From NCBI GenBank assembly GCA_017856455.1, contig JAFMEZ010000005.1, positions 1 through 64,000 of the forward strand: DNA of 64,000 nt. The letters are read 5' to 3'. Position 1 is the first letter of the stretch. Each line of letters begins with the position of its first letter. Of this stretch, positions 35,801 to 46,431 are shown piece after piece. Both the position numbers and the translations under genes were made by a program. The notes below the pieces were generated by a model that saw only the letters and a list, made by a program, of their open reading frames with translations, had not been told where the DNA came from and did not search any database. This stretch comes from Parafilimonas sp. GTDB lineage: Bacteria; Bacteroidota; Bacteroidia; Chitinophagales; Chitinophagaceae.

Positions 35801-36304
35801 ATGAGTGATAGCAATAAAAAGTGGTACGTTCTTTATACTAAACCCAGATGGGAAAAAAAGGTCGATAAAGCCCTTTTGCAAAAGGGTATAGAATCTTATT
35901 GCCCCCTGAATCGTGTGAAAAGGAAGTGGAGTGATCGGATCAAAACAATTGAAGAGCCACTTTTTAAAAGTTATGTTTTTGTTAGGGTAGAGGAGAAAGA
36001 CAAAACAGAGGTTCGATATGTTGATGGGGTTTTGAACTATGTTTATTGGAATGGGAAGCCTGCCGTAGTAAAAGAGGATGAAATCATCGAAATCAAGAAA
36101 TTCCTCAAAGACTACGAAAATGTCGAGGTCAAAAATCTGGATGTAAAGCCAGCTGATGAGGTGGTGGTTAATGCCGGGGTAATGGTTGGGGCAACCGGAA
36201 GGGTGCTAAGGGTGATGGGAAATAATATGGTTGAAGTCCGCATAGAAAGCCTTGGATTCGTCCTGACCGCCAAATTTGAAAAGAAAAACCTTCTCAAAGC
36301 CTGA
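35801..36304 (+). CDS. UpxY-type NusG paralogue (transcription antiterminator)
   Basis: A 167-residue protein with a NusG N-terminal domain (WYVLYTKPRWEKKVDKALLQKG start, then YVFVRVE) and a C-terminal KOW domain (VNAGVMVGATGRVLRVMGNNMVEVRIE, about 122-152). UpxY proteins act on specific capsular-polysaccharide operons in Bacteroides. Here no polysaccharide genes lie beside it: the neighbours are a peptidase and the CarH-type regulator, so its target is unknown, perhaps elsewhere. Confidence 0.85.
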   Translation: MSDSNKKWYVLYTKPRWEKKVDKALLQKGIESYCPLNRVKRKWSDRIKTIEEPLFKSYVFVRVEEKDKTEVRYVDGVLNYVYWNGKPAVVKEDEIIEIKKFLKDYENVEVKNLDVKPADEVVVNAGVMVGATGRVLRVMGNNMVEVRIESLGFVLTAKFEKKNLLKA

Positions 36305-36342: not shown

Positions 36343-37236
36343 ATGAACGCATTTACGATCAAAGATCTGGAGAATTTGACGGGTATAAAAGCCCACACTA
36401 TTCGTATTTGGGAGCAACGCTATCGTTTTTTAAAGCCTCAAAGGACGGATACGAACATCCGTTACTACAGCAATGAGGAGCTCAAAAAAATCCTAAATAT
36501 TTCTCTTCTCAATAAAAATGGGTTCAAGATTTCTCATATCGACAAAATGTCTGATCATGAGATCAATGAAAAAATTCTAACCATCAACAATGCAGAGGCT
36601 CAACAAGAGCATGTTGTAAACCTGATGATTCAATACATGGTTGATATTGAATTGACAGGATTTGAACGTCTTTTAAAAGAAAGGATTGAGGCGAAGGGAA
36701 TTGAAAAAGTGATACATCAATTCATCTTTCCGTTTATGGAAAGAATAGGACTGCTCTGGGTTACAGGGCATATCAATCCTGCGCAAGAGCACCTGGTTTC
36801 AAATATCATTCGCCATAAACTCATTGTTGGAACTGAGTCTGTCAACCCTATTTTCAAATCAGATAAAAGGGTTTTGCTTTTCATGCCTGATGGTGAATAC
36901 CATGAACTCGGACTTTTATTTATTCAATACCTCCTCAAAAATCGTGGCATTGAAGTATACTATTTAGGTGCTAGTGTTCCTTTAGCAGATGTAGCATATG
37001 TTGTAAAGCATAAACAACCCGATTACATCTACACACACATGACTACAGCCTCCCGTCAATTTAATTTTGAAAGGTTCATGACACAGGCCGTTCAAAAGTT
37101 CGGTTCAGTTCCTTTTATCATATCCGGACCAGTAGCGGCGATGTACGAGTCTAAGATCCCTCCACAGGTTAAATTTAAGCGTTCATTACAGGAAGTAATG
37201 GACTTTGTAAATCAACTTTCTCTCTCAAGTAATTGA
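36343..37236 (+). CDS. CarH-type B12-dependent photoreceptor / MerR-family repressor
   Basis: A 297-residue regulator. An N-terminal MerR-type winged helix (about 4-60, IKDLENLTGIKAHTIRIWEQ) is followed by a B12-binding helical cap and Rossmann-like domain. The light-sensing W-x9-E-H motif is present (Trp139, Glu149, His150), and the cobalamin ligand lies in E-Y-H187-E-L-G. In CarH, adenosylcobalamin promotes a tetramer that represses DNA in the dark and falls apart in light. It lies upstream of an ECF sigma factor and the carotenoid genes, and inverted repeats follow it. Light-controlled pigment synthesis is inferred. Confidence 0.9.
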   Translation: MNAFTIKDLENLTGIKAHTIRIWEQRYRFLKPQRTDTNIRYYSNEELKKILNISLLNKNGFKISHIDKMSDHEINEKILTINNAEAQQEHVVNLMIQYMVDIELTGFERLLKERIEAKGIEKVIHQFIFPFMERIGLLWVTGHINPAQEHLVSNIIRHKLIVGTESVNPIFKSDKRVLLFMPDGEYHELGLLFIQYLLKNRGIEVYYLGASVPLADVAYVVKHKQPDYIYTHMTTASRQFNFERFMTQAVQKFGSVPFIISGPVAAMYESKIPPQVKFKRSLQEVMDFVNQLSLSSN

Positions 37237-37253
37237 TTATCAATTCAATATAA

Positions 37254-37342
37254 TTTGTTTAATAGTTTTAAAAAAATATTAAACAAAAATTTGTTTGTCT
37301 GAAACAACTTTGTTTAACTTCACATTCTAAAAGTTAAACAAA
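37254..37342. promoter_or_regulatory. Operator array: two identical inverted repeats upstream of the sigma-factor gene
   Basis: TTTGTTTAA at 37254-37262 and TTAAACAAA at 37279-37287 form an inverted pair with a 16-base spacer; the same pair with the same spacer recurs at 37309-37317 and 37334-37342, ending two bases before the sigma gene's ATG. A near copy (TTTGTTTGT) lies at 37290. Their place between the CarH-like gene and the sigma gene suggests they are the CarH binding sites; not proven. Confidence 0.7.
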
Positions 37343-37343
37343 T

Positions 37344-37844
37344 ATGTCTACGCAGGAATTCAATATGATGTTGGTGCAGAACTCTGAGTATCTCCGCCCC
37401 TTTGCAATAACACTGACTAAGGATCATGAATCTGCAAAAGACCTCTTGCAGGAAACAATGTTCAGGGCTATTTCCAACAAGGACAAGTATAATGTAGGTA
37501 CCAATATCAAAGCATGGATGTATACGATCATGCGTAACATCTTCATCAATAACTATCGCAGAAGAGCAAAGCAGAATACCATTTTTGATAACACACCAAA
37601 TGATTTTTTGCTTGACCATAATCAATCTGCTGTTCCCAACTCTGCAGAAACAAACATCAGAATAAAAGATATCGAAAGAGCTGTTTACAATTTGCCAGCA
37701 CTCTTTAAAAAACCATTCATGTTGTATTTCGAAGGATACAAGTATCACGAGATTGCAATCATGTTGGATGAACCTTTAGGTACGATCAAAAGCAGAATTC
37801 ACTTTGCAAGAAGATTATTGAAAGAGGAAATCAGCAAGTTTTAA
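37344..37844 (+). CDS. ECF-type sigma factor (sigma-70 family)
   Basis: A 166-residue sigma factor with region 2 (about 20-70, KDLLQETMFRAISNKDKY and IKAWMYTIMRNIFINNY) and region 4 (about 110-160, LPALFKKPFMLYFEGYKYHEI and LGTIKSRIHFARRLL). No anti-sigma gene is adjacent. It is preceded by the operator array and followed 14 bases later by crtI, so it may both be controlled by CarH and drive carotenoid genes. Confidence 0.9.
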   Translation: MSTQEFNMMLVQNSEYLRPFAITLTKDHESAKDLLQETMFRAISNKDKYNVGTNIKAWMYTIMRNIFINNYRRRAKQNTIFDNTPNDFLLDHNQSAVPNSAETNIRIKDIERAVYNLPALFKKPFMLYFEGYKYHEIAIMLDEPLGTIKSRIHFARRLLKEEISKF

Positions 37845-37858
37845 TCTAACTTTCCATC

Positions 37859-39340
37859 GTGTCCAAAAAAGCAATAGTAATAGGTAGCGGTTATGCAGGC
37901 CTATCAGCAGCAACTTTTCTTGCCCAGTCTGGATGGGAAGTACAAGTATTAGAAAAACATGATCAGCCTGGTGGAAGAAGTAGATTTTTCTCTTCCGATG
38001 GTTTTTCATTTGATATGGGTCCGAGTTGGTATTGGATGCCCGACGTGTTTGAAAGATACTTTACAAGTTTCGGAAGAAAAGTAGAGGACTACTACACATT
38101 GGAGCGATTATCTCCATCATATAGAATTTACTGGGCAGACGACTATATGGATGTTCCATCTGATTATGAAGAGTTGAAAAAATTATTCAATCAACTTGAA
38201 CCTGGCGCTGGAGAAAAATTAGACGCCTTCATGGAAGAGGCTGCATACAAATATAAAGTTGGTGTAAATAAATTGGTCTACAAACCAAGTCTTTCATGGA
38301 CAGAATTTATTGACAAAGACTTAATGACTGGAATCTTTCGATTGGATGTTTTTAATAACATCAAATCGCATATCGCTAAATTTTTCAAGCATCCTAAGAT
38401 TCGTCAATTGATGGAGTTTCCCGTTTTGTTCTTAGGTGCCCTTCCAGAAAATACACCAGCTCTCTACAGCTTAATGAATTATGCAGATATTAAACTTGGA
38501 ACATGGTATCCAAAGGGCGGTATGCATAGGGTTGTTGCCGGAATGCATCAACTCGCAACTGAAAAAGGAGTTGTATTTCATTTCAATAAAAACGTTAATC
38601 ATATTCATGTAACGGGTAAAAATGCTCATACTGTAGAAACATCAGATGGTGAAACCTATAAAGCTGATGTAGTAGTTGGTGCAGCAGATTATCATTTCAT
38701 GGAGACTTCTTTGTTGGAGGAAAAATATCAGTCATATTCAAAAAAATATTGGGACTCAAGGTTAATGGCACCTGGTTCATTGATCTACTATTTAGGTGTC
38801 AATAAGAAAGTAGATGGCATACTGCATCATACGCTGTTCTTTGATGTTCCTTTTGATCAACACGGGAAAGATATTTATACCGATCCCAAATGGCCGGATA
38901 CACCACTTTTTTACTTAAGTTCAACATCAATCTCTGATGCTTCTCAAGCGCCAGAGGGCTGTGATAATTTATTTTTTCTGATTCCCATAGCGGCCGGACT
39001 AGACGGAGATGATGAGCAGGTAAGAGAAAAATATTTAGATCTTATTTGTAAAAGATTCAAAGAGAAGACAGGTTATGATATTAAAGAACATCTTGTCTTC
39101 AAGAGAACTTATTGCTCCACTGAATTCATTCAAGATTATAATGCATTTAAGGGTAATGCATATGGATTGGCCAATACACTTTTGCAAACTGCCATCCTAA
39201 GACCATCTTGCAAGAGTAAAAAAGTAGGTAACCTTTATTATACAGGCCAATTAACTGTTCCTGGTCCTGGTGTTCCCCCTAGTTTAATCAGTGGTGAGGT
39301 TGTTGCAAAACTCATTGATAAAGAATTCAATAGGGTATAA
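37859..39340 (+). CDS. crtI: Phytoene desaturase (CrtI type)
   Basis: FAD-dependent desaturase that introduces double bonds in phytoene. The 493 residues start with GTG at 37859 and the dinucleotide fold VIGSGYAGLSAATFLAQSGW. The PGGRSRFF motif and the C-terminal FYxxGQLTVPGPGVPPSL-type sequence (YTGQLTVPGPGVPPSLIS) are diagnostic of the CrtI/CrtN group. The number of desaturation steps is not predictable here. It lies directly after the sigma gene and 83 bases before crtB. Confidence 0.93.
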   Translation: MSKKAIVIGSGYAGLSAATFLAQSGWEVQVLEKHDQPGGRSRFFSSDGFSFDMGPSWYWMPDVFERYFTSFGRKVEDYYTLERLSPSYRIYWADDYMDVPSDYEELKKLFNQLEPGAGEKLDAFMEEAAYKYKVGVNKLVYKPSLSWTEFIDKDLMTGIFRLDVFNNIKSHIAKFFKHPKIRQLMEFPVLFLGALPENTPALYSLMNYADIKLGTWYPKGGMHRVVAGMHQLATEKGVVFHFNKNVNHIHVTGKNAHTVETSDGETYKADVVVGAADYHFMETSLLEEKYQSYSKKYWDSRLMAPGSLIYYLGVNKKVDGILHHTLFFDVPFDQHGKDIYTDPKWPDTPLFYLSSTSISDASQAPEGCDNLFFLIPIAAGLDGDDEQVREKYLDLICKRFKEKTGYDIKEHLVFKRTYCSTEFIQDYNAFKGNAYGLANTLLQTAILRPSCKSKKVGNLYYTGQLTVPGPGVPPSLISGEVVAKLIDKEFNRV

Positions 39341-39423: not shown

Positions 39424-40260
39424 ATGATTCAATTGTTCCATAGTGTTTCTCATGAGTGCAGCAAAGTCACAACTGCACGATACAGCACTTCATTTAGCAG
39501 TGCTATCAAGCTGTTGCAAAAAGATATCAGGGGGCCGATATATGATATATATGGTTTTGTAAGGTTTGCTGATGAGATCGTTGATAGTTTTCATGATTTT
39601 GACAAAGCGACTTTATTGGAGGATTTTAAAAAACAGACATACGAATCCATTAAAAATGGAATTAGCCTAAATCCTATTTTGAATAGTTTTCAAATTACAG
39701 TTAATCGTTACAATATTGATTTACACCTTGTAGATGCGTTTTTCAAAAGCATGGAATTCGATTTGAATAAATCGTCATATGATGATGAAGGATATGCATC
39801 ATATATATATGGAAGTGCTGAAGTGGTTGGATTGATGTGTTTATATGTTTTTTGTAATGGAAACAAAGAACAATTCGAAATGCTTAAACCAAGTGCTCAG
39901 GCTTTAGGATCAGCATTTCAGAAAGTCAATTTTTTACGTGACGTAAAAGCAGATTATCAGCAATTGAATCGCGTATATTTTCCAGGAGTTGATTTCAGGG
40001 ATTTTTCATCTGAGATGAAGCAAAAAATCGAAGACGATATCCAGTGTGATTTTGATAATGCTTATGAGGGTATTATAAAATTGCCTTTGAATGCACGCTT
40101 TGGTGTCTATTTAGCTTACAAATATTATTTGAGTTTGTTTAAGAAAATAAAATCAGTACAACCTCAAAAAATTCTGGAGCATCGCATTAGAATTCCGAAT
40201 TACCACAAGGCTTGGGTTGCTGCGAAAGTTGTTATTCGCACACAGTTGAATCTATTGTAG
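39424..40260 (+). CDS. crtB: Phytoene synthase
   Basis: Joins two geranylgeranyl diphosphates to phytoene, the first committed carotenoid step. The 278 residues have both aspartate-rich motifs: DEIVD (about 49-53) and, in the second, LRDVKADYQQLNRVYFP (about 176-192), and the start SVSHECSKVTTARYSTSFS. Length is normal. No cyclase, ketolase or GGPP synthase gene is in the window, so the pathway must be completed elsewhere. It ends nine bases before the convergent GH3 gene. Confidence 0.92.
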   Translation: MIQLFHSVSHECSKVTTARYSTSFSSAIKLLQKDIRGPIYDIYGFVRFADEIVDSFHDFDKATLLEDFKKQTYESIKNGISLNPILNSFQITVNRYNIDLHLVDAFFKSMEFDLNKSSYDDEGYASYIYGSAEVVGLMCLYVFCNGNKEQFEMLKPSAQALGSAFQKVNFLRDVKADYQQLNRVYFPGVDFRDFSSEMKQKIEDDIQCDFDNAYEGIIKLPLNARFGVYLAYKYYLSLFKKIKSVQPQKILEHRIRIPNYHKAWVAAKVVIRTQLNLL

Positions 40261-45087: not shown

Positions 45088-46431
45088 TCATAGGGTTTCT
45101 AAGAATGCTGCAATTTTTTTTCTAACATTGGCACTGGTGGTAAAATGGTTATTGACCATAATTGAAAAAGCAAGCCATTTATTCTTTTTGTTTAAATAGA
45201 ATCCACTTAAACAAACCACACCATTTAATGTACCAGTTTTAGCGTAAATATAGTCAGTTGACTTTTTGGGGTAAAGTTTCAAATTGGCAGAACCCGCACC
45301 GGGCATGATTTTTTTGACCCTTTCCCAGCCAAACTCATCTCTCATTTTTTGGAGGATCCAAATCATATCAGCCGGACTAAACAAATTGTATCTACTGAGT
45401 CCACTTCCATCTACCCACTTTGGTGCCTGAGGTAAATCTGCAAAATCTTTATTCAGCAAAGCTGTGATGACCGCAGATTCATCCATTTTGTTTAACATCA
45501 TCTGGCTGATCATCTCCAAGCACATGTCTGCATAAAAATTATCACTTCGATCCATCATGTCGCTCAATAAACTATCAGTTGCTTGAGATGTGATTAAGGT
45601 TGGACTTTTATTTGATGAAAGTTTTATTGTTTCCGGATCAGCAAGATGGATAGATAAGTGTAAAGAATCACTCAATAATTCAATTGTTGATGATAGTCCG
45701 TTTGTTACAAACGGAACAATCATATTTGCTGATTTTTCTTTTCCTTCATGAAGAATAAATTCATTTTTATCCAATGATCGATTGACCTGAAAATTTTTTC
45801 CTGGCATACCAATGTCTACTTTCCAGTTGATCTCAGGTGATGAATACATGAAAACATCTACGGTATCTCCAGGGTAAGTGGGATTGTCTTTCTTGGATTT
45901 CTCCTGATACCATTGTAGTTGGTTGCCGTAAATTGGAAACGGACTTCTTTCAATCATATAGTCTTCAGCATAATCTTCCCAACTCCAGCCGGGACCCCAC
46001 TTTGCACTGTTCCAGTTATTCGGATTAATGTAAATAGGTTTGTTGACTTTCTTCAAGTAATCAAACAAAGGATGCGACTGAAACCTGGGGTGTAAAAAAC
46101 TTGGATCACCCGTTGGCGTCAACAATACCGCAGTATCTAAATCGCTAATAAATGCTGCCGGTAAATTTGCTGACAAATGTTTCATGGCAGCATAACAACT
46201 TACAATTTTTGTATTGCTTGCGGGAGTAAATAATTTATCAGATTGATATTGATATATCCAAGCTTTGTTATCTATATCCTGTACAGCTATTCCTATATGT
46301 GCTTTTGATAAGGATGAATCATTCAAAAGAAAACGACTTGCTTGTTTACCAATTTTTGAACTTATTGAACAAGACTGCAACGTGATTATAAAAATTGCAA
46401 TGCAAAAGGTTAAATATTTTTTGAAAATCAT
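45088..46431 (-). CDS. dacB: PBP4-type D-Ala-D-Ala carboxypeptidase/endopeptidase (lipoprotein)
   Basis: A 447-residue penicillin-binding protein of the S13 family: SxxK in PASNTKIVS (about 71-79), SxN in DGSGLSRYNL and KTGT near residue 390. The signal segment ends with a lipobox (LQSC, Cys about 21), so it is predicted to be lipid-anchored, which differs from the soluble E. coli protein. It trims or opens peptidoglycan cross-links. It starts at 46431, downstream of the arginase-fold gene on the same strand with a heptad repeat in the gap. Confidence 0.88.
   Translation of the reverse strand: MIFKKYLTFCIAIFIITLQSCSISSKIGKQASRFLLNDSSLSKAHIGIAVQDIDNKAWIYQYQSDKLFTPASNTKIVSCYAAMKHLSANLPAAFISDLDTAVLLTPTGDPSFLHPRFQSHPLFDYLKKVNKPIYINPNNWNSAKWGPGWSWEDYAEDYMIERSPFPIYGNQLQWYQEKSKKDNPTYPGDTVDVFMYSSPEINWKVDIGMPGKNFQVNRSLDKNEFILHEGKEKSANMIVPFVTNGLSSTIELLSDSLHLSIHLADPETIKLSSNKSPTLITSQATDSLLSDMMDRSDNFYADMCLEMISQMMLNKMDESAVITALLNKDFADLPQAPKWVDGSGLSRYNLFSPADMIWILQKMRDEFGWERVKKIMPGAGSANLKLYPKKSTDYIYAKTGTLNGVVCLSGFYLNKKNKWLAFSIMVNNHFTTSANVRKKIAAFLETL

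Follow-up and report, generated by a model that had tools for sequence, protein, structure and literature searches.

What controls the ECF-type sigma factor gene that lies just downstream of an apparent B12-dependent photoreceptor gene in this window (the whole stretch of DNA analysed, 64,000 nucleotides)? The question is raised by two inverted repeats in the short intergenic region between these genes, which the earlier note had picked out as a candidate light-responsive operator. Comparative analysis points to that reading as the best supported one, given the identity of the CarH product, the conservation of the repeat pair and the co-occurrence of the motif with carH. The features on which the argument turns are the following.

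36343 to 37236, plus strand: carH, a MerR-type B12-dependent photoreceptor/repressor homologue of 297 aa, assigned by Pfam, PDB, predicted fold and residues.
37254 to 37287, no strand assigned: candidate distal operator O1, TTTGTTTAA-N16-TTAAACAAA, directly 5' of the −33 region; kept in ~71 of 87 distinct relatives.
37290 to 37293, plus strand: probable −33 promoter element TTTG; a TTTG-like block stands at this offset in relatives, as in the sigma-ABfr consensus.
37309 to 37342, no strand assigned: candidate proximal operator O2, TTTGTTTAA-N16-TTAAACAAA, overlapping the −7 box and the predicted start site; kept in 87 of 88 distinct relatives.
37315 to 37322, plus strand: probable −7 promoter element TAACTTCA (TAnnTTTR in relatives), inside O2.
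37344 to 37844, plus strand: ECF-type sigma-70 factor gene, 166 aa (Pfam Sigma70_r2 and Sigma70_r4_2; NCBIfam sigma70-ECF superfamily).
37859 to 39340, plus strand: crtI, phytoene desaturase of the CrtID type (NCBIfam NF058655, above cut-off), 14 bp after the sigma gene.
39424 to 40260, plus strand: crtB-like phytoene synthase gene (Pfam SQS_PSY).

As the earlier note had reported, TTTGTTTAA-N16-TTAAACAAA occurs twice with exact 9-bp arms, at 37254-37287 and 37309-37342, the two copies being offset by 55 bases from start to start. The two spacers had been called identical; they do share a length of 16, but their sequences are not the same (TAGTTTTAAAAAAATA versus CTTCACATTCTAAAAG). The gap between O2 and the sigma start codon, given before as two bases, is one base, with O2 ending at 37342 and the ATG beginning at 37344. 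Pairs of such arms with a spacer of 10–30 number three in the window, as against none expected from dinucleotide shuffles of it, while the single 9-mer alone shows no enrichment (60 found versus 62.5 expected), so that the signal lies in the paired spacing. Throughout the host genome (1.94 Mb, 89% complete), no sequence apart from the window pair comes within one mismatch of the motif at a spacing of 16 or 17; weaker matches show no excess there over a reversed control (11 versus 15 and 13 versus 19). These genome-wide motif counts are the product of pattern searches. A third inverted repeat with the same arms is present in the window at 45187-45215; its spacer is 11, and it falls within a coding sequence of the reverse strand (45088-46431). 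We set it aside as an operator, in that it is intragenic and a spacer of 11 is not seen with exact arms near the carH genes of relatives, and it is probably a chance occurrence.

The assignment of the upstream gene as carH is supported by several features of its product. The protein scores over cut-off for Pfam MerR_1, B12-binding_2 and B12-binding, and thus comprises an N-terminal MerR DNA-binding domain followed by helical and Rossmann B12-binding domains, the architecture that defines the family. Its best PDB sequence matches are T. thermophilus CarH/LitR, and an AlphaFold model (pLDDT 89) finds its top fold matches in 5c8e and 5c8d, both T. thermophilus CarH. The light-sensing W-x9-E-H motif that had been noticed earlier is indeed there, as W139, E149 and H150, as is the B12-ligand motif E-x-H-x2-G (E185, H187 and G190); the tryptophan, the E-H pair, the glutamate and the ligand histidine are invariant in 15 aligned relatives. 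Position His132 of the T. thermophilus protein, the second ligand in the light state, corresponds to Val140 here, and a histidine at the equivalent position is found in none of ~170 relatives. The narrow CarH equivalog model NF052513 is the best-scoring NCBIfam model, but its 108.9 bits fall short of the cut-off of 400, and the window protein is a distant homologue of the group modelled by NF052513. Neither His132 nor the NF052513 cut-off was counted as defining the CarH/LitR family. Taken at the level of domains, key residues and predicted fold, the identity of the upstream gene product as a CarH homologue is confirmed. Among the genes of the host genome is one for a cob(I)alamin adenosyltransferase, by which AdoCbl can be produced from a cobalamin precursor. 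Upstream of carH, on the same strand, lies a gene for an UpxY-family NusG-like antiterminator (35801-36304), which ends 38 bases 5' of it.

Downstream, sigma, crtI and crtB apparently constitute a single operon, and the order carH, ECF sigma, crt genes is present in relatives as well as in the window; no anti-sigma gene adjoins the ECF sigma gene. By the named relatives, the locus belongs to the Chitinophagaceae. The earlier note would have counted absence of the pair from relatives with the carH-sigma order against its reading, and such an absence is not what the relatives show. With up to four mismatches allowed, the proximal one is found in 87 of 88 distinct Chitinophagaceae-type sigma upstream regions, 0–7 bp from the sigma ATG (10 bp in one case), and the distal one in ~71 of 87, at 20–23 bp (mode 21) from its proximal partner. 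The spacing within each palindrome is equally restricted. In the surroundings of 80 named carH loci (640 kb), exact arms are separated by N16 in 10 cases and by N17 in 21, and no further spacer length between 8 and 30 is seen; the reversed control has no matches at all. A logo drawn from 133 N16 and 66 N17 sites reads tTTTGTTTAA, followed by a T-rich stretch and then the mirror image, with TGTTT almost invariant. We considered whether the T-rich/A-rich interior might hold a second 11-bp pseudo-repeat, and the logo displays there only a weak symmetric T/A tract.

The placement of these palindromes becomes more telling once the promoter beneath them is considered. The housekeeping promoter of the Bacteroidota follows the sigma-ABfr consensus TTTG/TANNTTTG, with a weak −33 element (PMC6847099). 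In 83 of 85 proximal operators, a TAnnTTYR sequence extends out of the left arm, as compared with 5 of 85 for its mirror image out of the right arm and 1 of 67 for the distal operators, and this sequence in the proximal palindrome reads as the −7 box of such a housekeeping promoter. Twenty-one bp 5' of the −7 box, 87 aligned relatives share a TTTG-like block (T 64, T 57, T 57 and G 43%). The near-copy of an arm at 37290, TTTGTTTGT, which had been taken for an operator half-site, does exist, but this alignment suggests that it is probably the −33 promoter element instead. Less favourable to this assignment are the weakness of the −33 element and the sequence of the window's −7 box, TAACTTCA, which departs from TTTG. 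Transcription is predicted to start at ~37327, inside O2. Several class-level relatives have the operator directly before crtI, without a sigma gene, and there it contains TATATTTG and ends at or near the start codon; in two lineages, then, the operator appears to lie on a −7 box, which is the position of a blocking repressor. Because the proximal palindrome overlaps the −7 box, a site for a dark repressor that is released by light is its most likely function.

We consider it probable, on this comparative evidence, that the neighbouring CarH photoreceptor has its operators in both palindromes, serving dark repression of sigma-crtI-crtB and its release by light. Dark repression by CarH and its inactivation by light are established in other phyla (PMC9304148). 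In the dark, AdoCbl-bound CarH would occupy both palindromes, O1 abutting the −33 region and O2 lying across both the −7 box and the start site in the putative sigma-crtI-crtB promoter, such that RNA polymerase carrying the housekeeping sigma factor would be shut out. Light would break the Co-C bond of AdoCbl and CarH would leave the DNA, allowing sigma-crtI-crtB to be transcribed and the crt enzymes to be made, with the ECF sigma factor perhaps relaying the response to further genes.

How does this arrangement compare with the systems already described? The CarH operators characterised so far consist of 11-bp direct repeats in tandem, with the half-site TnnACA (PMC9304148). The half-site itself is present in the window, as TAAACA in both right arms and its complement TGTTTA in both left arms, whereas pairs of TnnACA 11 bp apart are found neither in the window intergenic region nor in any of 88 related upstream regions. 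The CarH/LitR systems of Thermus thermophilus and Bacillus megaterium share with the window the regulator family, the TnnACA half-site and an operator that overlaps promoter elements controlling carotenoid synthesis (PMC9304148); their operators consist of three or four tandem 11-bp direct repeats, in place of two inverted half-sites with a fixed 16/17-bp spacer. In the LitR-LitS system of Streptomyces coelicolor (PMC5401885), the ECF sigma factor that drives the crt genes has its own gene repressed by a B12 photoreceptor, much as we propose here. The window differs from LitR-LitS in that crtI and crtB apparently share an operon with the sigma gene that precedes them, which would put them under direct control of CarH as well, and in that the operator and promoter type are specific to the Bacteroidota. 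The Pcrt promoter of Myxococcus xanthus, under CarA/CarH, also has an operator of ~55 bp, which was at one time interpreted as a pair of inverted repeats about the −35 region. That operator was later read as 11-bp direct repeats (PMC9304148), whereas in the present case it is the inverted layout that is conserved. The operator would then be a widespread Bacteroidota motif that puts the known CarH half-site into an inverted-repeat form with a 16/17-bp spacer, a layout that appears new. The earlier note knew of no such site in this lineage; searches of the open-licence literature on CarH/LitR operators in Bacteroidota, on TTGTTTAA together with MerR, and on light-regulated transcriptomes returned nothing relevant, and a prior description elsewhere is possible. 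The outcome is a concrete, searchable candidate CarH operator for the Bacteroidota, unlike in layout the direct repeats beneath the crystallised CarH tetramer.

Our inference that these palindromes are bound by CarH draws on the distribution of motif and gene. The exact N16 motif is found in 52 of 299 genomes of the order, versus 2 for the reversed control, and carH is present in 49 of those 52, the three exceptions being 75–83% complete (Fisher p = 9e-4); when the order sample is confined to motif genomes at least 90% complete, carH is present in all 40 (p = 6e-5). At the level of the phylum, 35 of 296 genomes have the exact N16 or N17 motif and all 35 have carH, 233 have neither and none has the motif alone, an association with a Fisher p of 1.7e-28 that is uncorrected for ancestry. 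Conversely, the exact motif is absent from 28 of the 63 carH-bearing genomes of the phylum, some of which have variants with one or two mismatches and others none. Two genomes (G522 and G407) carry neither carH nor motif, and their congeners have both. Operator sites also occur 5' of carH itself. The DNA-binding wing reads T-N-I-R in 121 of 127 motif-linked CarHs, a figure in which some duplicated genomes are counted; the pooled counts include some relatives twice.

A different regulator, either a B12-MerR paralogue or some other HTH protein encoded elsewhere, might bind the palindromes and share a light or oxidative-stress regulon with CarH. Many operator sites do lie at loci away from carH, and inverted repeats are unusual for CarH, the known sites being direct repeats. 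We nonetheless think this unlikely, as carH accompanies the motif without exception in the phylum set (35/35) and in the near-complete genomes of the order (40/40), the sites cluster beside and 5' of carH, and the half-site obeys the TnnACA rule of CarH. The same genus does have a second B12-binding MerR paralogue, at loci L075-L080, with the other wings GKHR, SNHR and SRHR, and the palindrome was not found near these loci. It is also conceivable, if rather more doubtful, that CarH itself binds as an activator, or acts both ways, in the manner of classical promoter-bending MerR proteins: CarH belongs to the MerR family and the two operators flank the −33/−7 region. MerR activators, on the other hand, sit between the −35 and −10 elements, while O2 takes up a blocking position over the −7 box and the transcription start, and the characterised CarH/LitR proteins are dark repressors (PMC9304148, PMC5401885).

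The repeats stand directly before a sigma gene and ECF genes are often autoregulated, such that the ECF sigma factor might itself recognise the repeats as parts of its promoter. The motif is symmetric, though, and recurs 5' of carH and rhodopsin genes; in many class-level relatives, moreover, carH and crtI flank the operator with no sigma gene among them, which argues against the sigma factor as the binding protein and leaves autoregulation very improbable. Hardly credible is an RNA hairpin or terminator-like structure, or a chance palindrome. The arms could pair in RNA and the region is A+T-rich; against this stand the fixed 16/17 spacing, the free spacer sequence, the unrelated downstream genes and the near-zero controls. 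Since transcription is predicted to start inside O2, O1 and half of O2 would not even be transcribed from this promoter. Repression by CarH accordingly stays the preferred reading, and the candidate operator then predicts light-responsive genes across many Bacteroidota.

Which genes these might be can be seen from the wider distribution of the motif. The earlier note had proposed a search for the paired arms before carotenoid genes in related genomes, and this search succeeds: in other families of the order and class, exact or near-exact motifs are found 5' of crtI and crtB, as well as of carH and of genes for lipocalin, GTP cyclohydrolase I (folE), 6-pyruvoyl-tetrahydropterin synthase, glutathione peroxidase and peroxiredoxin. 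The motif also precedes genes for rhodopsins, which are light-driven proton pumps (L224 and L248 are examples), and for Brp/Blh-type beta-carotene dioxygenase; at L248, the operator lies between divergent rhodopsin and Blh-type dioxygenase genes. Among rhodopsin loci at the class level, 11 of 30 have the motif with at most two mismatches within 350 bp upstream, versus 0 of 30 for the control, and all 30 rhodopsin-bearing genomes checked contain carH. The loci with an operator are as follows.

Rhodopsin loci with operator: L294, L296, L305, L318, L309, L290, L291, L306, L300, L303 and L319.

In marine Bacteroidota, light raises the expression of rhodopsin by an unexplained route. An operator before rhodopsin and blh genes makes a light route to rhodopsin expression directly testable. 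It could be, and we offer this tentatively, giving it slightly less than even weight, that a class-wide B12 photoreceptor regulon operates in the Bacteroidota through the inverted-repeat operator, with CarH governing carotenoids, rhodopsins and retinal synthesis together and thereby switching on rhodopsin phototrophy. The host genome has a rhodopsin gene of its own outside the window (G000:C47:24055-24923, L218), with a weak site (three mismatches, N17) 129 bp upstream, and two close relatives have weak sites, of three and four mismatches, at nearly the same distance from their rhodopsin gene. These sites are suggestive only, because the genus as a whole is close to its control.

Two further protein families recur beside the operators. 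Genes for FAS1-domain proteins follow the motif at eight loci in the order sample, and FAS1 (fasciclin) proteins repeatedly adjoin exact operator sites (L093-L097, L111, L112, L116, L230, L237 and L241), a pattern that hints at a role in adhesion or at the cell surface under the control of light. Genes for DUF4397 proteins, too, follow the motif, and these proteins repeatedly adjoin operator sites, at L044, L055, L106, L109, L119 and L122.
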